Of a DNA stretch of 33,824 nucleotides, positions 2,650 through 29,695 are shown one piece after another. Positions within the stretch are counted from its first letter, which is position 1. Each line of letters begins with the position of its first letter. The DNA is from Chloroflexota bacterium (GTDB lineage Bacteria > Chloroflexota > Anaerolineae > B4-G1 > SLSP01). The notes beneath the pieces were generated by a model. It made no database searches, was not told the origin of the DNA, and was given only the letters and a program-made list of their open reading frames with translations. The DNA is taken from contig JAKJAC010000003.1 of NCBI GenBank assembly GCA_022707705.1, positions 266 through 34,089 of the forward strand. Reading direction: 5' to 3'. Position numbers and translations under genes: made by a program.

Positions 2650-3609
2650 TTGGCATTGGCAAACACGGAATCCACGGTTGCTTCTGATAACGCAACGCCG
2701 GAAGCCAGGGTAGTATTGCGAAAGCGCTCACGCCCGGGGGAAACCCTGTTTCAGAGCTTTCTCTTCATCTGCGGGGCAATCTCAATTCTGACGACAGCGG
2801 GCATCATCTATGTGCTGGGGCATGAATCACTGCTCTTCTTCAGAAGTCCAGATGTGAGTCTACTCGAGTTTTTCACCGGCACCAAATGGCAACCGGCAAT
2901 CCTGGAGTTTGGGATTCTGCCACTCTTCAACGCCACTTTGATGACCAGCGCGATTGCATTGGCGGTCGCGTTGCCTATGGGTCTCAGCGCCGCGATTTAC
3001 CTGAGCGAATATGCCACGCTACGCACGCGCGGCGTGCTTAAGCCTATCCTGGAAGTGCTTGCCGGGATTCCGACAGTAGTTTATGGCTATTTTGCGTTGA
3101 GTTTTATGACGCCACTCTTGCGCACGCTCTTTGGCGCCAACACGGTTGAAATCTACAACACAGCTTCTGCCGGTCTGGTGATGGGCATTCTGATTTTGCC
3201 GCTGGTCACCTCCATGAGCGAGGATGCGCTAAGCGCAGTGCCGCGCAGTCTGCGGGAAGCAGCCTACGCATTAGGCGCCACCAAATTGGAGACAGCCGTG
3301 AAGGTAGTCGTGCCCGCAGCATTATCGGGCATCACCGCAGCTTTTATCATTGCTGCCTCACGTGCTGTAGGAGAGACCATGATTGTCGCCGTTGCAGCGG
3401 GCGCAGGACCGAATTTCACTTTCAACCCTTTTCGCGCTGCCGAAACGATGACGGGACACATTGTGCGTATCAGCGGCGGTGACCTGAGTTACGATTCAAT
3501 CGACTATAACAGCATCTTCGCCATTGGATCGATGCTTTTCTTAATGACTCTGACGCTAAATCTCATCAGCAATCGCGTAGTACGGCGTTTTCGGGAGGTG
3601 TATGAATGA
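2650..3609 (+). CDS. pstC: Phosphate ABC transporter permease PstC
   Basis: PstC is one of the two membrane channel subunits of the high-affinity phosphate importer. An in-frame ATG exists at 2590, but the segment 2596-2623 is a stem-loop. The TTG at 2650 follows a perfect AGGAGG (2637-2642) by 7 nt, so a TTG start is chosen, giving 319 aa, the usual PstC size. Six hydrophobic segments are apparent. The EAA loop that contacts PstB is clear ([19 protein letters not shown]), and the following helix contains ASRAVGETM, typical of Pst permeases. The stop codon overlaps the pstA start (ATGA), indicating translational coupling. Confidence 0.93.
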
Positions 3610-6889: not shown

Positions 6890-8548
6890 CTACAGACGTC
6901 TTAGAGGATACAGGTCGCCTTCCACAAAACCACGTTCGCGATAATAGGGCCGGGTTCCCACTGCGGCGATGACCGCCAGCTCGCGGAACCCGGCTTTCCA
7001 CGCCAGGTCCGCCGCGATTTCCAGCAGCTGTGTGCCCAATCCGCGATGTTGCTCCCCCCACCCGCGCTGCCCAAGCTCCTGGGCAGGACCATAGATATGG
7101 ACCTCGCGAATCATCGCCGCATCACGAATCTCGGGCACGGGGATTTCTGTGCGCGGGGCATCAGGCAGTGAGAGCCGCAAGAAACCTGCCAGGCGCTCTT
7201 CCGGGGTCAGCACTTGAAGGAAGTGCTCCACGGTAGTATCTGTGCGGTAAGTCACATCCTCGACTCGCATACCATTATTCGCTGCGTGACCCATCAAAGT
7301 CTTGATTTCTGTGCCAGCTATGCCCCGCAGCTCTTGCGCGCCGCTGCTGCGGACTTCACGACAGCGAATACAGTCACAGCGCAAGCCGCGTGCTTCCAGT
7401 GCCTGTTGAACGACTTGGCGCAAGTTGCTTTTGCGGGTCCCTGCGACGATATAGGAGGCGGGAATATCCCGCATCAGACGGTTGATGCGGCAATAAGGCG
7501 GCACAAGCATCTTGCATTGTACCAGTAACTCAATCAGGTCTGCTTCAGCGTAAGGCGCATATTCTCCGGCAGTCCACAAGTCATAGAGCGCCGTGCCTTC
7601 AACCAGAGCCGTGGGGTAGATTTTGATCTCATCAGGGCGTAGCGCCGGATCGCTCCATAACCGAGCAAAATCGGCAAGGTCGGAGTCCAGGGTCGCGCCC
7701 AACAGATTGGGCATCCAATGCAATACTACCTTGAAGCCGCCGAGACGCAGCAGACTGACCGCTTGCTGCGTCTGCGCTAGAGTGTGCCCACGCCGATTGA
7801 GCAGCAGGACACGGTCATCGAGGCTCTGCGCACCCACTTGCACTTTCGTCACGCCGTTTTTGCGCAGCGTCACCAGCGCTTGCGGCGTGATAAAATCAGG
7901 TCGCGTCTCGACAACCAGTCCTACATTGCGATGAGGCGCCTGTTCATTCTGCAGCAGAGCTTCCTGTAACGTCGAGGACTCTGTTTCGTTCATCGCGTCA
8001 AAACAGCGGCGCAGAAACCATTCCTGATACTCTGCCGGATAGCACGACCAGGTGCCACCAAGAATCAGCAACTCCACCTTATCCACCGGGTGTCCGATGG
8101 CAGTTAGTGCTTTGATACGCCCGGCGGTTTGGAAAAAGGGATCATAACCGTATTGCAGCGCCCGCAAAACACCGGGCTCACCATCGAGATAACTTTTTGG
8201 GGCATCTTGCTGCCCAGGGCAGAAGATACAATTTCCCGGGCAGGGATAAGGCTCAGTTAATACCGCAACGGGAGTCACACCGGAAATGGTTCGCACCGGG
8301 CGTCCTCGCAACCGTCGTTCAAGGTCTGAACGAGGTACAAGCGCGCCTTCTGCCACCAATTGCCGATAGGCTTCGAGCAACTGTGACTTGGCATAAGTGC
8401 CCGAAGGACTGGGGTACCTTCGCAGAATATCTGAGTAATCTTCAACATTCTCAGGCAATGCAGCTACGGCGTGCAGGATGCGCAATACACGTTCGCGCTC
8501 ATCAGGCACGCTCAGGTCCAGTTGCTTGGGTACACCACCTTTAACCAT
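6890..8548 (-). CDS. elp3: Elp3-type tRNA uridine-34 modifying enzyme (radical SAM + GNAT)
   Basis: Stand-alone Elp3 uses a radical SAM cluster and acetyl-CoA to start 5-carboxymethyl modification of wobble uridine in tRNA. The 552-aa protein carries CPGNCIFC (Cys103, 107, 110, the CxxxCxxC form used by Elp3), the following PKSYLDGEPG and GGTWSCYP segments, and a C-terminal GNAT domain (~480-552) with RGLGTQLL and YYRERGF. The N-terminal ~90 residues match the tRNA-binding part of archaeal and bacterial Elp3. It is a single gene. A TATAAT stands 7 nt before the ATG, so the mRNA may be leaderless. Elp3 is best known from eukaryotes and archaea; bacterial copies occur in Chloroflexota among others. 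Confidence 0.93.
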   Translation of the reverse strand: MVKGGVPKQLDLSVPDERERVLRILHAVAALPENVEDYSDILRRYPSPSGTYAKSQLLEAYRQLVAEGALVPRSDLERRLRGRPVRTISGVTPVAVLTEPYPCPGNCIFCPGQQDAPKSYLDGEPGVLRALQYGYDPFFQTAGRIKALTAIGHPVDKVELLILGGTWSCYPAEYQEWFLRRCFDAMNETESSTLQEALLQNEQAPHRNVGLVVETRPDFITPQALVTLRKNGVTKVQVGAQSLDDRVLLLNRRGHTLAQTQQAVSLLRLGGFKVVLHWMPNLLGATLDSDLADFARLWSDPALRPDEIKIYPTALVEGTALYDLWTAGEYAPYAEADLIELLVQCKMLVPPYCRINRLMRDIPASYIVAGTRKSNLRQVVQQALEARGLRCDCIRCREVRSSGAQELRGIAGTEIKTLMGHAANNGMRVEDVTYRTDTTVEHFLQVLTPEERLAGFLRLSLPDAPRTEIPVPEIRDAAMIREVHIYGPAQELGQRGWGEQHRGLGTQLLEIAADLAWKAGFRELAVIAAVGTRPYYRERGFVEGDLYPLRRL

Positions 8549-8561
8549 GCCCTCTATTATA
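8549..8561 (-). promoter_or_regulatory. elp3 -10 element, probable leaderless start
   Basis: On the minus strand TATAAT (8561-8556) ends 7 nt before the elp3 ATG (A at 8548), placing the expected transcription start at or within 1-2 nt of the start codon. No convincing -35 is seen at 17 bp (TGAGGC). A short GAGGG lies directly against the ATG, too close to be a normal ribosome site. Confidence 0.55.
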
Positions 8562-8968
8562 ACTCAAGTTGCGGTTTAGCCTCAGGGTATAGACAAGGGG
8601 CATTCGTAGCAGTTCGGAGGGCTTCTGCGTCCCCTGTGAGGCGCGCAGGGCAAAGAGGTTGCTGCGTCAACCCCGGACGAATGCCTTGCTCGCGCTTCAA
8701 GGGCAGTGCGCGAGGCGTGGCGCGGTTTCGGTCAGCGACCTGCTACGAAATCCCACAAAGAGCACACCACTTATTGGGAAGTTCAAGCGGTTGAGTACAA
8801 CCGCGGTTGGCTTGGTGGGACAATGGCGTTGGGTACAACGCGTGTGGATTTTGGCAGATGCGGACTAAAGTCCGGAAAATATCCAACTCGATGATTAGTT
8901 TTCTGCGAAGAATGGTTGCATTTGACAGCAAAACCTATTTCCGTAACGACATCGTTATTATAAAGCAC
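8562..8968. repeat. Repeat-rich intergenic segment between elp3 and the methyltransferase
   Basis: About 400 bp without a credible gene. It holds a 9-bp inverted repeat GGCATTCGT/ACGAATGCC (8599-8607, 8677-8685), CTCGCGC/GCGCGAG (8689-8695, 8708-8714), a 15-bp motif also found at 23171-23185 (8720-8734), two GTTGrGTACAAC palindromes (8788-8803, 8826-8841) in a 35-bp block that recurs at 18453-18487, and a small CGGAC-TAAA-GTCCG hairpin near 8860-8875. Short open frames here are translations of these repeats. Confidence 0.7.
8773..8807. repeat. 35-bp intergenic repeat, copy A
   Basis: Identical over 35 bp to 18453-18487. It contains the palindrome CGGTTGAGTACAACCG (8788-8803). A second, variant palindrome GCGTTGGGTACAACGC follows at 8826-8841. 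Confidence 0.85.
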
Positions 8969-8997
8969 TTTTCAAATGCGAATTTCTCGCATATAAT
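8969..8997 (+). promoter_or_regulatory. Promoter of methyltransferase gene, leaderless type
   Basis: TTTTCA (8969-8974), a 17-bp spacer and TATAAT (8992-8997) stand 6 nt before the ATG at 9004, so transcription should start at the start codon. No Shine-Dalgarno sequence precedes the ATG. Confidence 0.65.
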
Positions 8998-9003
8998 AGC
9001 ACT

Positions 9004-9708
9004 ATGCGACAGGAAGTAATCATACAACTCAATGAACTAAATCGCGACTTCTACAATCAATTTGCCGAGACCTTTGCCGATTCACGTGGGGCAAGTGAAC
9101 CAGGTATGGGATATGTGCTCTCGCTAATCAGGCCTGGGAATCAAGTTCTGGAGTTGGGGTGCGCACAGGGGCGTTTTGCGCGGTTGCTCCCGGCAGGTTG
9201 CCAGTATCTAGGGCTAGATTTCTCAGCCGCATTGATAGCGCTTGCCCAAGAACGCTCTTACCTCATTCCAACACAATTTGTGGTTGCGGATTTGATGGGA
9301 GACGACTGGGTGATGCAGGTCAATCCACCTTACGATGTCATTTTAGCGCGCGCCGTGCTACATCACATTCCAGGATACTCGAATCGCCTGCGGATATTGC
9401 AGCAGATGGCAACATTGCTAAAGCCAGCCGGACAGATCATATTAGCGAACTGGCAGTTGCTAGCAGCGGAGCGATTTCGCAACCGTCTTCAGCCCTGGCA
9501 AAACATCGGATTGTCAGATTCAGATGTCGAGCCTGGCGATTGTCTACTTGATTGGCGCCGCGATGGGTTTAGCCTACGGTATGTGCATCATATTGACGCG
9601 GATGAGGTCCGCCGTCTCGCGGTTGAAGCGAAATTGGATATTGTGGAAATGTATGCTTCAGATGGACGTGAGGGCAATCTTACACTCTACGCAGTTATGG
9701 CGAGGTGA
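9004..9708 (+). CDS. Class I SAM-dependent methyltransferase, substrate unknown
   Basis: This 234-aa cytoplasmic protein has the Rossmann-type SAM site: motif I VLELGCAQGRF (residues 48-58), an acidic end of strand 2 (LGLDFSAALI), motif II/III VVADLMGDDW and a post-motif segment ILARAVLHHIPGY that resembles the UbiE/Methyltransf_11-type families. The late segment (DGFSLRYVHHIDADEVRRLA) is typical of small-molecule methyltransferases with a C-terminal lid. The substrate cannot be read from sequence. It appears to be the head of a two-gene unit with the putative lipoprotein gene, which begins 4 nt after its stop. Confidence 0.85.
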   Translation: MRQEVIIQLNELNRDFYNQFAETFADSRGASEPGMGYVLSLIRPGNQVLELGCAQGRFARLLPAGCQYLGLDFSAALIALAQERSYLIPTQFVVADLMGDDWVMQVNPPYDVILARAVLHHIPGYSNRLRILQQMATLLKPAGQIILANWQLLAAERFRNRLQPWQNIGLSDSDVEPGDCLLDWRRDGFSLRYVHHIDADEVRRLAVEAKLDIVEMYASDGREGNLTLYAVMAR

Positions 9709-10216: not shown

Positions 10217-13200
10217 TTATTGAGTCACTTTGTAGAGGCGCGCGCCATTCTGGTCGTAGAGTTTTTCCAACCAACCCCACGCCACCATGTTGTCGAATTT
10301 CTCCATGCCCTCGGGCGCCATCAGCATTTGCTCATAGGGCGTCAGCACTACGTAGGCAATCTGATACTGCTGGAGAATCATCCGCGCTATCTGAGGGTCT
10401 GCGGTATCGTAAAATGCCCTGACGTCTGCTTGCCGCAGTTCAACGGTGCCAGCTGGCATAACCATGCGTTGTTGCACCTGATGCCACCGCCATCCCACAA
10501 CAGAGGGCAAACCCGTGTAGATGCTGACGCGATTGCCCCAGGTGATATACTCCACGGCAGCATTCATCTCCATGATTGCAGGTGAACCGGCGATATGATC
10601 TTGTATCCAGTTGATGAGCGCAAGGTCTGGCGCCAGCGAAAGAGAAGTGCCATTTTCATAATGTTGAGCAAACGCCAGAGATTGGCTCCCATCAAGTGAA
10701 TTCGGCGCGGCGCTTACCCAACGGTCACGCAATTTGGCGGGAATCGCAAACACGGGATAGAGAGCCCCTAATAGCAACAGCAGCAACAAGATACTCAGTA
10801 TAGCATCGCCTAGCCACACCCGGCGCCCGCTGAACCATTGTTCCAGGCGCACATCAGCGGTATCCTTTCCACTCCAGAAGAACGACCACAGGCGTTCCTG
10901 GGCAACGGCTGCAGTGATCGCAAATAGCATCCATACTTGCATGTAGGGTTTGAAGACTGTGTTCATCCGTCCCAAATCACCTTTGAGCACGACCAGCTCT
11001 ACAACCAGAGTGATTGTGAGCGCCGTACCCACCCAGAACCAGAACACGCGCCAGTGGGGTTGTTGTCCGGGATTCAGCACCAACAGCGCCGCTATCACTC
11101 CCAGGGGAATGACAATCCAGGCGATTTTCACCCCAACGAAAAGCAGCGTCAGTGTGAGCAAAAGCGTTCCCACGGTCACTGCCAGCAATTCTTTCCAGGG
11201 AGCCACAGTCAGGTTTTGTCGCAGGTGGCACAACATTACCCGCGCCTGAGCTACGGCAAGCAACACCAGGGAGAGCACAAATTGTCCATGAATGAGGAAA
11301 TATTCTCCTGCCATCGTGCGACGGCCTGTCCAGGCGCCAATCTCTCCGTATATGGCGATGTAATTGGATGTGAAGGGATGGAACAACATTGCGGCAAAAC
11401 CCCAAATGAGCAGTGGCGTCACTAATTGGTAATAGGGGAAATGCAGCTGCCAGGTATCAGTGGCTTCAGACGGAGATACTGCCAGTGCACTGTGCTTGGG
11501 GAAGAGCAGCGGCAGCAGAAAACCCACACTCATCAACGCCAGATAGGTCGGATAATCCCAGGTGTTGGTTGCCTGGAGCGCCCCCGCCACTAAACCGGCG
11601 AGCACCAGAAGCGGCAGCGCTCTGCGGAAAAAACTCCAGGCATCGGTGATGACTGAATTGGCACGCGAGCGCCATTGCGCCGTTGGGCGCAGCCCCCACT
11701 GCAGAGCGATCCCCAGTGCAACTTGCGTCAGCGGCAAGGAAATAGCGTGGGCATGCAAGTCGCCGTACAAAAAGGTAAACAGCGGGAACTCATTGATGGG
11801 GCCTGCCCCTTCACCGGGTCCGGCAGGGATGATGCGCGTTGCATTCCAGTACCACCATTCTGGACGAAAGGGAAGTGTTTGCCCTTTCACAACCACTTTC
11901 CAGAAACCAGAAGCGGCAGACACCAGTAACTGATACCCGGGAATCAGGCTTTCGAATTGTACATTACCGACTTCAGCCAACCCCTTAAGCAGTAACTGAA
12001 TTTCACCCAGGTTACCCAGCAACACGACCATGGCAACAGCCCAGATACCCGCACGTCGCGCCCGGCGCACACTTCCAGGCGTGGCATCCCTCCCTCCCGT
12101 CGCAAGATTTGCCGCCAGCGTATACGCGCCTGTGCCGGTCATAGCAAACAGGGTCGGGATTGCCAGGTTGTAAGCCACACCGGGTATGATACCAGTAGCT
12201 TTGATCAATGAGCCAATGAGCACGAAACCAAAGTAGTAATAATTCATTTCCCCGCCAGCAAACCAGGGGTCATAGGGGGGGAACCAACTGGATTTGATCA
12301 CAGCATTAAGGTAAGCCAGGTCCATAGGCTTTTCACCACCTGTAACCAGATGGTAGAAATCAGGGTTAGCATATCGCACCAGCACCCAGCCCACATATAA
12401 AACCGCAAAGACGATCTCGATGCGTAAAAGGTCTGGCCAACGCTCACGCCAGAACTCACGCACCTCGTTCCAACGCCGGCGTAGCAACAATGCCGTCATC
12501 AAAGTCCAGACCAGCAACAGAATCCACAAAAGTGCCTGCGTATGACGCACCACATGCAGTGAAGCCAATAGCCAGGCGGGGTATGCCCATAGCAAAAGCC
12601 CTAGCATTCGAGCAAGTCCGTATCCCCGATCCCGCAACGCAGGGAAAAGCAGCATCATCCAGGGAAATGCAAGCCAGCTCAATAGAGTTAGCACCAACCA
12701 CCAGAGCAATACTGCCAATACAGGGTACCGGTTTTGCAGCGCGGTGCGATTGAACATAGATGACCATGTCCCCCCACCCTCTTGCACCTCACGTGTTTCG
12801 GTATCCATGACCAAGGGCGTGCCGTCACCGCCTGTCTCGCGCGTAGCCTGCTTGGGAGTCATCCACACCGCATTATCTATCAGCGAAAGTGGAAGCAGCA
12901 TTTCTGCACGCTCACGGGAATAGGCGGCAGTCTTGGCAAAAATCAACACCCGCGGATGATCATAGACGCTGAATGCCTCTTCCGCCACCGGATAGGGAAT
13001 CGAACAGCTGCGAGATGTGGTGTAACGTGCCAGCGGAATCGTGAAGGGCGCTTCCTGGTCTTCGAACTGGCATGCACCAAGCGATGGAAACGACACGAAT
13101 TCTGCTGTAAGCTCGAAGCCGAGGCTGCCATCAAAAAGCGCCTTGTAATATGCCACCGTAAGCGGATAACGCTGCGGCAGTCGCACTATTGAGCCGTAGA

Positions 13201-15196
13201 GGCGATTACTGGAAAGAACAATGTAATCCACCTCTTCAAGCCAGGTGTGGAGCAATTGCCATTTGCTCGGATCGTCGTTGTTGTAGAGTTGCATGAGCGA
13301 ATCGCTGCTGGATGATAAGCCCTTGTACCAATCATAGAAAGGGTCCTTGCCGTCAATCCTCACGGGCATGGCATCATCCCAATGCTCATTGCCCAGCACC
13401 GATGTCCCGAGGGTAATAGGAGCGCCATCGATCAAACGCAGGCGGACGAAGAGCTGCTCATTAGCCAAGACCTGTATGGGTTGAAGTGCAACCGTCAGCT
13501 TTGCAGGTGTGGCGCTGCCGGTAGGAATCTGCACCTCCTGCTGTGCAAGCACAGCGAGAGATTCCGGGTCCCGCGCCAGAACCACTTCCAGTAGAACCGC
13601 TTGTGCCGGGTCGCTCAAATGAACTTTGTTGAGGGTTAAGGAATTAATCGTCCCCGCCACATTAGGGGTAATCTGAAGCTGCAGTGGGCGCCCCTCCTTA
13701 TACAGGATGGCATTGGGTTGCACCGGCAACTGCAGCTGTAATCCTTCTTGTGTGCGGACGGTGATAGCTGTCGGAATATTCTCAAACATCCACCGCGAAG
13801 CTTCAACGCGGGTGAAGGTACGCGCATAAATCTGCATGAATGCAGCTGCCCAAAGAATGGTGCCCACAACGACTACCCCGATGACGCCGCGCGCCCCTGT
13901 AAGAATCCAAGTTCGCCATCCGTGGCATTGGCGTTCCAGGGCTTTTTTCGCCGCGGAGGCAAGGGCAATCAGCCCCCAAGCCGCGAAGAGCGTGAAAACA
14001 GGGTAAACGGGCAGCAGGTAGCGCATGGATTTGACCCACTGCGTCGCTTGATAGAGGAAATAGAGAGTTCCCCAAAGCCAGGGGAGAACGGCATCAAAGC
14101 GCCTTTCCCGCCAGAGCGCACGCGCCATGAAGCCCCAACCCGCCCAGGCTGTTATCCCAAGTGGCAATCCCAACCCCCAGAAGACCATATTGACCCATGG
14201 GAAGACCAGCGGCAAGCGTGATGTCCATTGGTGACCAGGCGGAGAGTCAATCTCACCGCTCACAACTTGCCGGATGTATTTCATGGTGTTCAACCATGAT
14301 GAAGAGAGGCCCACATTCCAAAATCCCGGACCCTTAAAGGCGTACGGCTGCGCCACTCGGAATATCAATACAGCAAGGAAACCAGACGCCACCAAGAACA
14401 ACAGTGTGGACAATCGTGTTTGGAGACGGAGTCGCGGACCCGACTCTGATTCCTCCAAATACAACAAGCCCGCAAAGCCCACCACCCCGGCAACGGGCCA
14501 AGTGCTGATTTTGCAGGCGACTGCCAACCCGGTCGTGATGCCGGCGAGAAGCAACACCCAAGTGCGGCGTGAGTTAGTAGCGACAACGGCAAGATATAGA
14601 GTCCAGGTAACAAATACTGTGGCAAAACTGTCTACTACAAAGAAGTGGGCGTGTTGAATAGGTAATACCGCAAAGGCGTAAAGAAGGCCTGCTAGCAATG
14701 CAATGGGTTCGCCAAACAAACGCCGCGCCAACAAAACCAGCGCCAGCAGACTCAAAAGATCGGCGAGAGTTGAGAGGTACCGGCCTACGAGGTGCACGCC
14801 GCCATAGCCGGTATACTGACCCGCATAGCAAGGCTGGCGAGAATCAAAGAGCAATGCACGCGCAAGGCGAGGGAGGAAAGGTGGGGCTTCGGTACAGGCA
14901 TGATCTAACCAGGAGCCTGCAGCTCGCGCGACAAACAACGGCAGGGTGCCGTAAACGTAGCCTCCAAAGCCACGGTTCTCCGGGTTGAGAGGCGAAGTGG
15001 CCGTATCCCAGTATTGATGGAGCGACTCTGGAAATTCCAGCGCCGCAGTCACCATCGTCAAATAACGTTCGTCGGGATGCAGGTGTGTCCCCTCATCCCA
15101 ATCCAGGTCATAAACGCGAACCCAGGCAGCAGCACAAAGAATCAATGCCAGACAGAGAAGGAAAATGCCACGTGAGATTTGATGTTTCTGTTGCAT
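10217..15196 (-). CDS. Giant membrane protein: GT-C glycosyltransferase fused to Chlor_Arch_YYY (DUF2298) domain
   Basis: This 1659-aa polytopic protein has two halves. Residues ~1-480 resemble PMT/ArnT-type GT-C transferases: a first membrane helix, then the acidic loop DLDWDEGTHLHPDE where such enzymes keep catalytic Asp/Glu, and many hydrophobic segments. Residues ~480-750 form a soluble, beta-rich extracytoplasmic region. Residues ~880-1650 match the DUF2298 family known from Chloroflexi and archaea, with the diagnostic YYY at 986-988 (GGEMNYYYFGF). A lipid-linked sugar is the likely donor and an envelope glycan or protein the acceptor; both are inference. The family often occurs as separate proteins; here both domains are one frame. 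TACAAT lies 7 nt before the ATG. There is no adjacent partner in its strand. Confidence 0.85.
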   Translation of the reverse strand: MQQKHQISRGIFLLCLALILCAAAWVRVYDLDWDEGTHLHPDERYLTMVTAALEFPESLHQYWDTATSPLNPENRGFGGYVYGTLPLFVARAAGSWLDHACTEAPPFLPRLARALLFDSRQPCYAGQYTGYGGVHLVGRYLSTLADLLSLLALVLLARRLFGEPIALLAGLLYAFAVLPIQHAHFFVVDSFATVFVTWTLYLAVVATNSRRTWVLLLAGITTGLAVACKISTWPVAGVVGFAGLLYLEESESGPRLRLQTRLSTLLFLVASGFLAVLIFRVAQPYAFKGPGFWNVGLSSSWLNTMKYIRQVVSGEIDSPPGHQWTSRLPLVFPWVNMVFWGLGLPLGITAWAGWGFMARALWRERRFDAVLPWLWGTLYFLYQATQWVKSMRYLLPVYPVFTLFAAWGLIALASAAKKALERQCHGWRTWILTGARGVIGVVVVGTILWAAAFMQIYARTFTRVEASRWMFENIPTAITVRTQEGLQLQLPVQPNAILYKEGRPLQLQITPNVAGTINSLTLNKVHLSDPAQAVLLEVVLARDPESLAVLAQQEVQIPTGSATPAKLTVALQPIQVLANEQLFVRLRLIDGAPITLGTSVLGNEHWDDAMPVRIDGKDPFYDWYKGLSSSSDSLMQLYNNDDPSKWQLLHTWLEEVDYIVLSSNRLYGSIVRLPQRYPLTVAYYKALFDGSLGFELTAEFVSFPSLGACQFEDQEAPFTIPLARYTTSRSCSIPYPVAEEAFSVYDHPRVLIFAKTAAYSRERAEMLLPLSLIDNAVWMTPKQATRETGGDGTPLVMDTETREVQEGGGTWSSMFNRTALQNRYPVLAVLLWWLVLTLLSWLAFPWMMLLFPALRDRGYGLARMLGLLLWAYPAWLLASLHVVRHTQALLWILLLVWTLMTALLLRRRWNEVREFWRERWPDLLRIEIVFAVLYVGWVLVRYANPDFYHLVTGGEKPMDLAYLNAVIKSSWFPPYDPWFAGGEMNYYYFGFVLIGSLIKATGIIPGVAYNLAIPTLFAMTGTGAYTLAANLATGGRDATPGSVRRARRAGIWAVAMVVLLGNLGEIQLLLKGLAEVGNVQFESLIPGYQLLVSAASGFWKVVVKGQTLPFRPEWWYWNATRIIPAGPGEGAGPINEFPLFTFLYGDLHAHAISLPLTQVALGIALQWGLRPTAQWRSRANSVITDAWSFFRRALPLLVLAGLVAGALQATNTWDYPTYLALMSVGFLLPLLFPKHSALAVSPSEATDTWQLHFPYYQLVTPLLIWGFAAMLFHPFTSNYIAIYGEIGAWTGRRTMAGEYFLIHGQFVLSLVLLAVAQARVMLCHLRQNLTVAPWKELLAVTVGTLLLTLTLLFVGVKIAWIVIPLGVIAALLVLNPGQQPHWRVFWFWVGTALTITLVVELVVLKGDLGRMNTVFKPYMQVWMLFAITAAVAQERLWSFFWSGKDTADVRLEQWFSGRRVWLGDAILSILLLLLLLGALYPVFAIPAKLRDRWVSAAPNSLDGSQSLAFAQHYENGTSLSLAPDLALINWIQDHIAGSPAIMEMNAAVEYITWGNRVSIYTGLPSVVGWRWHQVQQRMVMPAGTVELRQADVRAFYDTADPQIARMILQQYQIAYVVLTPYEQMLMAPEGMEKFDNMVAWGWLEKLYDQNGARLYKVTQ

Positions 15197-15203
15197 GCAG
15201 GCG

Positions 15204-15231
15204 ATTGTAACGCAAAGAGGAGGATTGACAA
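15204..15231 (-). promoter_or_regulatory. Promoter of the DUF2298 fusion gene, leaderless type
   Basis: Reading the minus strand, TTGTCA (15231-15226), a 16-bp spacer and TACAAT (15209-15204) are followed by 7 nt and the ATG (A at 15196). The predicted start of transcription coincides with the start codon. The remaining bases up to 15361 show nothing else recognisable. Confidence 0.65.
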
Positions 15232-21800: not shown

Positions 21801-22208
21801 CAACCACAACAGGTGCTCGTCATCGCAGTAAGTGGTGTGAGAGTTCCCAACGCCGCCTTCGAAATAGAGAATGACACAGCCACACCTGATATGCTGCGAT
21901 ATGTGGGTTGGGGCGACGGCGGTTGGAACCTGGCAAACGGAGGTGACCAGGTTATTCTGCTGGGTCCAGACGACCGCCCCGTTGATGTGCACCTCTGGGG
22001 ATCGGTGAGTTACCCCGGAGTAAGTCCGCATCCCGGCGTCAGCCTGAGTAGCTCTTCGCTGGAACGTTACCCAACAGACGTTGATACCGATGACTGTGCC
22101 GTGGATTTTCGCGAACGGGGTGTCCCCACACCGGGGGAAGTGCCAGAAGGAACCTTATCGCCCGAAATATCTTCCGGGATATTCGCGCTCAAACATCCAT
22201 TGGATTAA
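18819..22208 (+). CDS. Exported multidomain protein: LTD - DUF11 - LTD - phospholipase D-like - LTD
   Basis: The 1129-aa protein starts with a signal-peptide-like segment (hydrophobic ~11-21). Three lamin-tail-like beta-sandwich domains are recognisable by INEVAWMG...DEWIELHNP (~45-205), the region ~335-470, and ITEVYYATSD...EWVEIYNP (~960-1100). A DUF11 repeat (ADLQVSKTGPLTAVAG, TYTLHITNAG) occupies ~214-325. Between them lies a phospholipase D-like region (~540-950): HKD1 is complete (His638, Lys640, Asp645), whereas HKD2 has His864 and Lys866 but Gln871 in place of Asp, followed by an intact GSING. The protein may be an extracellular phosphodiesterase or nuclease, or a binding protein if HKD2 is dead. 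No C-terminal anchor is seen. Its end overlaps the convergent DMT gene by 20 bp. Confidence 0.85.
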   Translation: MHWKGNHSIRMLGVVTMVLLLRLHSPTPVSLLEAQTSEPMASSTVVINEVAWMGTAASTADEWIELHNPTAQNINLDGWTLIGDDNNTPNITLIGSIPAGGFFLLERTDDTTVSDINADQIYTGDLINTGESLTLRDNTNLVIDTANGNGGAWPAGDNATKSSMERINALAPDDDSNWATHSGIIRNGLDASGNPLNGTPKARNAAATPPEPGNADLQVSKTGPLTAVAGMTITYTLHITNAGQSPAVSVRVTDTLPTSVIFVSSIPTPTHTTGGIVTWNLDTLESGAEHQISLIGSISPNAPTTLVNTLVANTAPPESTYLNNTAVWTTTLINVLINAVMFNGLAPLDTDEAVQILNLSNTPAPLAGWELCKIASSNFACRTLPALILPPRGKIWLTRDLEDFRQSFGFPADVLLSPWLSNNLANEGDEVILRDATHAVADAVVFGENGEVNTAGWEGNAIRIYQNSVGSAEGQILHRIPDEVTGLPITDTDNDADWIQAADDPIHGRRAVFPGWDFVEPFFWPTTTTVSATLMVGIAPDNGYEIISRTLDSAQESIKIEVYTLYHGDLSEVLIAKAQAGVSVTVLLEGSPAGMGEVDPRWQAELTTCQLLEAAGGKCFFMIHETTDHIYARYELVHAKFIVVDNHWAVVTSQNFGNASIPSDDKRNGTFGSRGVVVATDAEAVVNRIAAVFDADCDPTHHHDILRWNTGGYARYSTPINPVDLYAGDATTTTVVFPEPLVLNGRFAFEVFTAPEGALRQRDTLLGLVARAQSGDTVYVEQLYEYATWGTEPLVGPNLRLEAYINAARRGARVRILLNSGSFDQEVYDSTQNHTTVETVNQISRAENLDLRASLGDPTAYGIHNKMVLVQLHGEGGYIHCGSINGSESSSKINRELALQVQSDAAYAYLEAMFLNDWYRSNPIFLPGILKHYTPPQHLLITEVYYATSDTNREWVEIYNPTGLPIDLSAYKIGDAAAPTDYESMYLFPPGTFIQPQQVLVIAVSGVRVPNAAFEIENDTATPDMLRYVGWGDGGWNLANGGDQVILLGPDDRPVDVHLWGSVSYPGVSPHPGVSLSSSSLERYPTDVDTDDCAVDFRERGVPTPGEVPEGTLSPEISSGIFALKHPLD

Positions 22209-23124
22209 ATGAAGGAGGCGGCGCAGCGCCACGCTGTACATCCCGACGCACTAATGAAGTGCCACCAATTAACAATACTGCCCCTAGCCACTGCAAGCCT
22301 GATAGCGTCTCACTCAATAACAACAAAGCCAGCGCCAGACTGACCACCATCTCCATAAGGTTGAGGATGGCAGTCTGAACACCACCCAATCGTTCCATAC
22401 TGAAGAACATCGCCAGACGTGAGAGCGCTGTGGTTAATCCCAACGCTACAATTACTTGCCAACCCGGTACACTCACAGGCTCCAACGGCGTCCCTCCAAG
22501 CAGGCGCGCCACAGATACCGTGATTGCCATTCCGGTAATGATATAAAGAGTTGCTGAACGCGAAGGCACATCTGCGAGAACCCACTGCCCCATGACCATA
22601 TACCATCCATTGAGCGCAGCTGAAGCAATCATCAACATCGCGCCAAGATGGTTGGAAGGGTCTGTCACCGTCCACGGCGCCTGAACCAGTAAAGCCCCAA
22701 TCAGTGAGGCGGCTAACCGGGAAACAGTGAGTCGCGTAATGCTTTGACCAGAGGCGGTGAGGAAAATAACAACCCACACGGCGTACAATGAACTGAGCAA
22801 TGAGGCGCGCGAAGCATCAATCCGCTCTAGCCCGCTATAGTAAAAAAGCGAACCCACACCATTGATTGCACCGATCATCAAACAGTACAACAACGTGCGC
22901 CAGGGAATGAGGAATAAGCGGGGCCAAAACACAAAGTACACTATCATCAAGAACACCGCCGCAACAAGCGTGCGCAACGACGCCAATGTCAACGGTGTGA
23001 TACCGTACCGATAAGCCAATTTACCAAGAATAGGCGCCCAACCGAGCAGAAATGAGCTCAGCAGCCCACTGTAAATGCCCATATTGCGCCGACGCAATTC
23101 CTGGTTGCCGATGCCCTGCCGCAT
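22189..23124 (-). CDS. EamA/DMT-family membrane transporter
   Basis: Ten hydrophobic segments in two EamA repeats mark a drug/metabolite transporter; substrate unknown. The frame is open to 23226, but the upstream codons (GDRNRAAG region) are translated from a 15-bp dispersed repeat also found near 8.7 kb. Two starts remain: ATG 23124, with GGAAAAG upstream and a basic N-terminus (311 aa), or ATG 23082, directly before the first helix (297 aa). The first is chosen. The C-terminal half ends with the family-like LLLSETLSGLQWLGAVLLIGG. It converges with the LTD/PLD gene, overlapping its last 20 bp. Confidence 0.85.
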   Translation of the reverse strand: MRQGIGNQELRRRNMGIYSGLLSSFLLGWAPILGKLAYRYGITPLTLASLRTLVAAVFLMIVYFVFWPRLFLIPWRTLLYCLMIGAINGVGSLFYYSGLERIDASRASLLSSLYAVWVVIFLTASGQSITRLTVSRLAASLIGALLVQAPWTVTDPSNHLGAMLMIASAALNGWYMVMGQWVLADVPSRSATLYIITGMAITVSVARLLGGTPLEPVSVPGWQVIVALGLTTALSRLAMFFSMERLGGVQTAILNLMEMVVSLALALLLLSETLSGLQWLGAVLLIGGTSLVRRDVQRGAAPPPSFNPMDV

Positions 23125-23170
23125 ACTCTTTTCCAGACCGCCACGGCTCAACCGACCACGGATACCGGCA

Positions 23171-23185
23171 GCGCGGTTTCGGTCA
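23171..23185. repeat. 15-bp dispersed motif, second copy
   Basis: GCGCGGTTTCGGTCA here is identical to 8720-8734. Both copies are followed by C/G-rich, partly self-complementary sequence, which suggests a short extragenic repeat family. Two copies only, so a weak case. Confidence 0.45.
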
Positions 23186-23219
23186 CCTGCCTGCGGCAAA
23201 GGTCCACCACCATTATCAG

Positions 23220-23248
23220 TTTTCACTCCAGATCATCCATGCTATACT
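23220..23248 (+). promoter_or_regulatory. Promoter of the small membrane protein gene, leaderless type
   Basis: TTTTCA (23220-23225), a 17-bp spacer and TATACT (23243-23248) stand 7 nt before the ATG at 23256. The -35 and spacer equal those of the methyltransferase promoter at 8969-8997. No Shine-Dalgarno is present. Confidence 0.6.
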
Positions 23249-23255
23249 GAACATT

Positions 23256-23768
23256 ATGAAGAGACGGCGCAAATCCATATTGCTGATACTGGCAGCCCTC
23301 AACATAGTCATCATTGGGCTTCTTGGCACCTTTGTGGTCAAGCAAAAAAACGCCACACCTCCAACAACCGCAGCAATCTCTCCCTGTTCACAAGTTGTGC
23401 TTTCCAAAATCGAGCCCTATCTCTCACCCGCCGTTGCCTGGGATACCGGCACATTGACGGTGATGACCACGGTTTTCTATAGCACGCCCAATCCCCCCGA
23501 TGCTAGCGCCCAGTTGCTCTGGGATATGCTCGATAGTATCAAACACGCCCTGGAACTCGGTTGTGACCTTCCTGCAGAGGTCACGCTCATCATTCAAGCC
23601 CACGGACAGATGCAAAACACCAGTCATGTAGCCCTGCTCAACGGAGCAGATATCGCAGCCTGGACAAAAGCAGAGCTCTCCGATACAGAACTGAGTCTTC
23701 GCGGCAAATATTGGCAGCACAACGAAATCCAGCCCGAGCGCTCCGAGCAGCAATCCTCCCCCAATTAA
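23256..23768 (+). CDS. Small membrane-anchored protein of unknown function
   Basis: The 170-aa product starts MKRRRKS, followed by one hydrophobic segment (~8-28), then an apparently exported domain of ~140 residues with Cys near 44 and 104 that could form a disulfide. No known motif is recognised. The frame is open upstream to 23052, but that part overlaps the 5' end of the DMT transporter gene; the ATG at 23256 sits 7 nt after a good promoter and directly before the membrane segment. Its TAA stop shares the palindromic TTAA with the stop of the convergent phosphodiesterase gene. Confidence 0.65.
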   Translation: MKRRRKSILLILAALNIVIIGLLGTFVVKQKNATPPTTAAISPCSQVVLSKIEPYLSPAVAWDTGTLTVMTTVFYSTPNPPDASAQLLWDMLDSIKHALELGCDLPAEVTLIIQAHGQMQNTSHVALLNGADIAAWTKAELSDTELSLRGKYWQHNEIQPERSEQQSSPN

Positions 23769-28434: not shown

Positions 28435-28464
28435 GGGCGGTTTTGTTCAAGTGCAAAACCGCCC
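28435..28464 (+). terminator. Hairpin at the right end of the insertion sequence
   Basis: GGGCGGTTTTG (28435-28445) and CAAAACCGCCC (28454-28464) form a perfect 11-bp stem with an 8-nt loop, followed by CGAATTTTG on the + strand. It would act as a terminator for + strand transcription leaving the element toward the S1 gene, or as a structural end element. Confidence 0.55.
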
Positions 28465-28478
28465 CGAATTTTGTCTAA

Positions 28479-28486
28479 ACTCGAGT
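28479..28486. repeat. Target-site duplication, right copy
   Basis: ACTCGAGT, identical to 26993-27000. It is directly followed by the ribosome site of the S1-domain gene (AGGAG at 28489-28493), so the element inserted just ahead of that gene. Confidence 0.75.
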
Positions 28487-28501
28487 TCAGGAGACGCGAT
28501 C

Positions 28502-29695
28502 ATGAAATCAGCCACAGACCTTGGATCACACTCCGAGCAGGATACGCTGAGCGCGATGCTCGATGCCTACACTCCCCCTGCTCCCTGTCGTCGCGGTGAC
28601 GTTGTGAAAGGTGTCATCGTGCGAGTTAATCCTAAAATGATCCTGATTGACATCGGGAACAAATGCGACGCCATCGTACACCCGCGGGAAATGGAGTTGC
28701 TCGAGCCTGGTGACCTGGAGAGGCTAAAACCTGGTCAAACGGTTCATGTGTACGTGCTCGATTCCAATGAAAGTGAGAATGTGATTCTGGTCTCACTGAA
28801 TAAAGCGGATCAAGAAAGCGATTGGGTGCGCGCACAGCAACTGCTGGAAAGCGGCGAAACCGTGGAACTGGAAGTGGTGGATTACAACAAGGGCGGCGTG
28901 ATAGTCCACCTGGGGCAGTTGCGTGGCTTTGTGCCTGCATCGCAGTTACAGCCGGGTTGGCGCTCTTTTCAAAACGCAGAAGATACGGAGCACCGTTGGC
29001 AAGCGCTGTTGGGGAAGACCCTCACACTCAAGGTAATTGAGGTGACCTCTAGCCGAAACCGCCTTATCTTCTCGGAACGTGGAACATTCAGCGAACGTCC
29101 GCGTCGCCACAATGTTCTGGAGGAGCTGGAAGTCGGTTCTGTGCAGCGGGGTGTGGTCAGCAATATTGTTGAATTCGGTGCATTCGTCAACGTCAAGGGC
29201 ATCGATGGACTGTTGCATATTTCGGAAATCTCCTGGCAGCGTGTGAATCACCCTTCGCAGGTGTTGCAGGTGGGTCAGGAACTGGATGTGTACATTTTTG
29301 ATGTGGACCTGGAACGCCGCCGGCTCAGCCTCAGCCTCAAACGCCTGACGCCCGACCCCTGGGAGCTGATGGGGCAGCGTTACAGCGAGGGACAACAACT
29401 GGATGTCAAGATTGTCAATCTTGTGTCGTTTGGGGCTTTCGCTAGCCCGGTAGATATTCCTGAGGTCGAGGGCTTGATTCATCTTTCTGAACTCTCTGAG
29501 CAACCGGTACTGCGGGCAGATGAGGTGGTGCAGGTCGGCATGATTCGCCCGGCGCGAATCCTATCGCTGCGCCCCAAAAACCGTCGTGTTGCTTTCAGCC
29601 TGAAAGTTGCATCTTCTGAACTCCAGGAATCTGAAACGAAAGTCGCTGAAGTGGCGCCGGAAAATGATGCGCCGGTATTCCCCACTGAAGTATAG
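28502..29695 (+). CDS. S1-domain RNA-binding protein, RpsA-like (four S1 repeats)
   Basis: S1 repeats bind single-stranded RNA; bacterial ribosomal protein S1 uses them to capture mRNA. The 397-aa product has four repeats (~30-106, ~115-195, ~207-280, ~292-372). The third (VSNIVEFGAFVNVKGIDGLL) and fourth (VNLVSFGAFASPVDIPEVEG) are the most canonical. Four-domain S1 proteins are usual in many Gram-positive and deep-branching bacteria, so this may be the genuine S1. The ATG at 28502 has AGGAG 8 nt upstream. The insertion sequence ends 23 bp before the start codon, so its original promoter has been displaced. Confidence 0.9.
   Translation: MKSATDLGSHSEQDTLSAMLDAYTPPAPCRRGDVVKGVIVRVNPKMILIDIGNKCDAIVHPREMELLEPGDLERLKPGQTVHVYVLDSNESENVILVSLNKADQESDWVRAQQLLESGETVELEVVDYNKGGVIVHLGQLRGFVPASQLQPGWRSFQNAEDTEHRWQALLGKTLTLKVIEVTSSRNRLIFSERGTFSERPRRHNVLEELEVGSVQRGVVSNIVEFGAFVNVKGIDGLLHISEISWQRVNHPSQVLQVGQELDVYIFDVDLERRRLSLSLKRLTPDPWELMGQRYSEGQQLDVKIVNLVSFGAFASPVDIPEVEGLIHLSELSEQPVLRADEVVQVGMIRPARILSLRPKNRRVAFSLKVASSELQESETKVAEVAPENDAPVFPTEV

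Follow-up and report, generated by a model that had tools for sequence, protein, structure and literature searches.

Leaderless genes have been inferred in bacterial genomes from TA-like (TANNNT) signals approximately 12 bp upstream of the start codon by Zheng et al. 2011 (PMC3160421), and in that survey such genes were predicted in 4 of 12 Chloroflexi genomes, where they made up 4.0-5.7% (average 4.7%) of the genes. In Deinococcus-Thermus and in Actinobacteria/Mycobacterium they account for a fifth to two fifths of the genes (PMC3160421), and in the GeneMarkS-2 work leaderless transcription was predicted in 21.6% of bacterial species (PMC9581028). Translation directly from a 5'-terminal AUG is a route described for leaderless mRNAs, and it is favoured by IF2 (PMC10783764). 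Our literature search turned up no paper in which transcription starts had been mapped in Chloroflexota. The leaderless class is an already known, minor mode in bacteria; what is added here is a lineage, a set of conserved individual sites, and variation at the level of families.

The window analyzed here is a stretch of 33,824 nucleotides from a 4.8-Mb, 77.6%-complete assembly of a Chloroflexota bacterium. A sequence-only reading of the window had pointed to four genes whose -10 hexamer ends 6-7 nt before the ATG and which lack a Shine-Dalgarno (SD) sequence, and to a TTTTCA-17 bp arrangement common to two of them. All four sites were confirmed by direct reading, and the shared arrangement is that of the methyltransferase gene and the gene for a 170-aa protein. 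The features are summarized in Table 1.

Table 1. Genes, promoter elements and repeat DNA discussed in the text (positions are those of the window).
Feature	Position	Strand	Details
elp3-type radical SAM/GNAT tRNA U34 modification enzyme, predicted leaderless	6890..8548	-	552 aa; TIGR01211 469.5 bits, cut-off 350
elp3 -10 box TATAAT	8556..8561	-	spacer 7 nt to ATG 8548-8546; direct reading and relatives
Dispersed repeats in the gap that separates the divergent elp3 and methyltransferase promoters	8598..8843		outside both core promoters
Methyltransferase -35-like TTTTCA	8969..8974	+	17 bp to -10; promoter search and relatives
Methyltransferase -10 box TATAAT	8992..8997	+	spacer 6 nt to ATG 9004; conserved in relatives
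SAM-dependent methyltransferase, predicted leaderless	9004..9708	+	234 aa; PF13489 1.1e-15
DUF2298/Chlor_Arch_YYY membrane protein, predicted leaderless	10217..15196	-	1659 aa; PF10060 3.3e-108; TIGR03662 488.7 bits
DUF2298 gene -10 box TACAAT	15204..15209	-	spacer 7 nt to ATG 15196
DUF2298 gene TTGTCA	15226-15231	-	16 bp upstream of TACAAT
170-aa gene promoter TTTTCA-N17-TATACT	23220..23248	+	-10 ends 7 nt before ATG 23256
170-aa protein without family, predicted leaderless	23256..23768	+	orthologues in 12 relatives

The minus strand reads TTGAGT TATAAT AGAGGGC ATG at the elp3 start and TTGTCA-N16-TACAAT CGCCTGC ATG at the start of the DUF2298 gene. The methyltransferase gene is preceded by TTTTCA-N17-TATAAT AGCACT ATG, with 10/12 consensus matches in the promoter search, and the 170-aa gene by TTTTCA (23220-23225), 17 bp, TATACT (23243-23248) and then GAACATT ATG. 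On reading of the sequence, no SD was seen at 4-11 nt before the ATG in any of these four genes; the AGAGGG/AGGGG adjoining the elp3 ATG is too near to act as one. Other genes of the window do have an SD (starts at 3606, 4860, 29836, 31749 and 32428), for example AGAAGGAGGA before 4860, GGGAGGTG before 3606, and GGAGG before 29836, in line with the strong ribosome sites that had been noted for other genes. The four genes share with bacterial leaderless genes a TANNNT box approximately 10-14 nt upstream of the start that ends 6-8 nt before it, absence of an SD at usable distance, and a correct start codon, the N-termini being conserved from Met in relatives.

The nearest named relatives of the elp3 protein are from Anaerolineae MAGs (Chloroflexota; 86% identity), and elp3 and the methyltransferase gene are divergent neighbours across the family. 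The 170-aa protein gave no match in Pfam or NCBIfam. At 23226-23256, the annotatable GTG start of a divergent open reading frame for an EamA-type transporter (22189-23226) falls within the 170-aa gene's promoter, and the transporter therefore probably starts further in.

As judged by comparison with relatives, the box-ATG arrangement is real and evolutionarily conserved in these four genes. For elp3, an exact TATAAT is found 6-8 nt before the ATG, with no SD, in all 12 starts that could be read, which come from eight genera of the family (spacing of 6 nt in two, 7 nt in nine and 8 nt in one); at the base composition here, a given ATG would be preceded by an exact TATAAT in any of three registers with a probability of approximately 3e-4. 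The other upstream columns, with one genome taken per genus, are near background apart from a G at -2 in seven of the eight genera. With this G, with TG at -3/-2 in several of the boxes and with no conserved -35, the elp3 boxes would be as in extended -10 sigma70 promoters, from which they differ in that the distance from box to ATG is fixed as well. A search beyond the family, of 76 elp3 loci from Anaerolineae and others, gave six boxes at spacing 6 and two at spacing 7, two of these eight representing same-genus loci; the other spacings had 0-3 boxes.

Seven genomes keep the methyltransferase box, namely those of the genus (G000-G004) plus G012 and G013; its TTTTCA is kept in G003, G004 and G001 and is absent in G002. 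The methyltransferase gene of G011 (L258) reads CCAGGAGGAGCAC-ATG, with a strong SD (AGGAGG) replacing the -10-adjacent start, so the mode of initiation of this gene differs between relatives. In eight genomes (G000-G005, G011 and G014), the DUF2298 gene has its box at a spacing of 7 nt from the ATG, as TACAAT or, in G005, as TAAAAT. For the 170-aa gene, the complete TTTTCA-N17-TATACT-N7-ATG recurs with 0 mismatches in G002 and G003, directly at the ATG of the orthologue.

Conserved boxes of this kind could be real but secondary promoters, the main transcripts starting further upstream with a leader and being translated without an SD (unstructured start/S1-type); bacteria are known to use leadered starts that lack an SD (PMC5397173), and a plausible S1 gene encoding four S1 domains is present in the window at 28451-29695. 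However, the elp3-methyltransferase gap of the same-genus relatives is 80-170 bp, which leaves little room for other promoters, the gap in G000 is filled by repeats, and of the elements upstream of elp3 the box alone is kept across genera. Secondary promoters are considered very improbable on these grounds.

The gap between elp3 and the methyltransferase gene is 455 bp in the window, lengthened by repeats that leave both core promoters untouched; two segments (8597-8755 and 8771-8843, approximately 158 and 73 bp) were found again at several places of the genome sample. A promoter-like unit of 39 bp, TTTTCTAGAGCGGCAATAGTGGCTAGACTAACGAGCATG, was observed in G002 and G003 (many contigs; L100:1076-1114), with at least 10 copies per genome, and the repeat DNA holding this unit in the genome of the window looks related to the repeat that ends near position 8843. 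The unit comprises the motif TTTTCT/TAGACT-N7-ATG, in which 7 nt separate a -10-like box from the ATG. This motif was rejected as a further gene promoter, since it here precedes only a 13-codon open reading frame and belongs to repeat DNA.

The boxes could also be true promoters of ordinary short leaders, with the real start codons located downstream, and some Anaerolineae elp3 proteins indeed align only from residue 37-54. The proteins of the family, however, align from M1 with conserved N-terminal residues (MVKGGVP and MAKGGVP, and also MVKDGVP or MTKNGIP, from the Met after the box), and a downstream start would not require that the box-ATG spacing is held at 6-8 nt; downstream starts are hence regarded as very improbable.

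For a genome-wide test, a sample of 123 contig pieces (1.12 Mb, including 31 kb N) was taken in regular steps along the contig list, blind to the motif. Genes were called with a simple, home-made Markov gene caller, which replaced a codon-usage caller whose starts were badly placed; a total of 807 genes were called, and some genes were missed, including the methyltransferase gene of the window. A strict -10 box (TA, two of three of TAA, T) was counted before ATG candidates. By a 5-nt criterion, an SD was present before the candidate start in 429 genes of this sample, compared to 71 at a control position. The non-SD genes had 6, 4 and 3 boxes at spacings of 6, 7 and 8 nt, respectively, compared to an average of 0.86 boxes at each position outside this range, that is, 13 boxes versus 2.6 expected (Poisson P 3.5e-6), and the SD genes of the sample showed no peak at these spacings (2/688; Fisher P 1.7e-4). 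The distance plot of -10 motifs to start codons, which the sequence-only reading had proposed as a check, accordingly has its peak at 6-8 nt, and only in non-SD genes. The excess amounts to approximately 10 of the 807 called genes (1.3%). With a margin for weaker boxes and for genes that the caller missed, the predicted leaderless class would comprise about 1-3% of the genes, and its earlier description as a substantial class, set against this share in the 1.12-Mb sample, was overstated.

A count over the entire assembly gave 51 occurrences of TATAATN6-7ATG, compared to 35 with N4-5, 19 with N11-12 and 25 with GTG at N6-7, these exact-TATAAT counts having a noisy background (35 at N4-5); the excess at the 6-7-nt spacing goes with ATG, and GTG is without such an excess. 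The window, with four of approximately 24 genes, is above the genome average (binomial P approximately 0.001 at 2%), and this richness was given no further weight because a reader had singled the window out. Among the further class members are genes encoding a DEAD-box helicase with MrfA-type domain, a tRNA m1G methyltransferase, a response regulator, ABC and MFS transporters, and a glycosyltransferase; the members found genome-wide have no evident function in common. A possible additional class, in which the -10 box would lie at a distance of 15-20 nt and a short leader would start at the SD, gave a mixed picture on reading and is not claimed. A 16S gene, from which the anti-SD would be read, was not found in the incomplete assembly (77.6% complete).

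Chance occurrence of AT-rich hexamers near ATGs, selected by the reader, is refuted for the four sites: -10-like hexamers are common, the four cases among approximately 24 genes were chosen by eye and the background spacings are not empty, but each of the four box-ATG units is kept in relatives, that of elp3 in all 12 starts with the upstream DNA largely diverged, and the genome-wide peak is confined to non-SD genes.

The sites resemble the genes of Zheng et al. 2011 in signal (a TAtaaT-type box), in distance and in the manner of inference, and Chloroflexi are listed in that work (PMC3160421); they differ in belonging to a further lineage, one of the Anaerolineae, in the lower rate here (approximately 1-3%), and in the site-by-site conservation of individual genes. 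With Deinococcus-Thermus and Actinobacteria/Mycobacterium they share the -10 directly before the start, the absence of an SD, and the coexistence with SD genes; there, in contrast, leaderless genes are abundant (at least 20% in genomes of the Deinococcus or Actinobacteria type), whereas here they are a small minority.

The strength of the signal also varies within the class Anaerolineae, for which 150 genomes were counted and the family sums were made by hand. In one family of six genomes (f29), TATAATN6-7ATG was found 748 times, versus 173 (N11-12), 117 (N4-5) and 97 (GTG), a 4-6-fold excess over control spacings. In another family of six genomes (f12), there were 35 occurrences versus 53 (N11-12), 84 (N4-5) and 49 (GTG), thus no excess. 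By these counts, some Anaerolineae families have a strong leaderless signal, and in others none can be detected.

In sigma70 promoters the -10 box occupies positions -12 to -7, so a spacer of 6-7 nt would make the A of the ATG, or the nucleotide beside it, +1. RNA polymerase would hence start at, or not more than 1 nt from, this A and produce an mRNA without a 5' leader, and ribosomes carrying initiator tRNA would recognize the 5'-terminal AUG directly, without SD pairing. Sigma70-type promoters with the -10 fixed 6-8 nt upstream of the ATG very probably give rise to leaderless mRNAs in this organism, as a minor class in an otherwise SD-using Anaerolineae genome. For the elp3, methyltransferase, DUF2298 and 170-aa genes, the prediction of leaderless starts is well supported because the spacing, the lack of an SD, the conservation of the box-ATG unit, and the conservation of the proteins from Met coincide.

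For an uncultured Chloroflexota lineage, the prediction of leaderless starts now has a firm comparative basis, and correct start codons are supplied for genes that SD-based annotators may misplace. The predicted leaderless promoter of elp3 persists across genera, while in at least one relative the neighbouring methyltransferase gene has a strong SD instead. It is conceivable, though rather unlikely, that leaderless initiation is selected family-wide in certain genes, most of all in elp3 with its tRNA wobble-modification enzyme, and may serve regulation, and that the size of the set changed strongly between families; if true, translation of these genes might, for example, persist under inhibition of SD initiation or under an altered IF2/IF3 balance. 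The variation among the Anaerolineae families provides a test bed for gain or loss of the leaderless mode.
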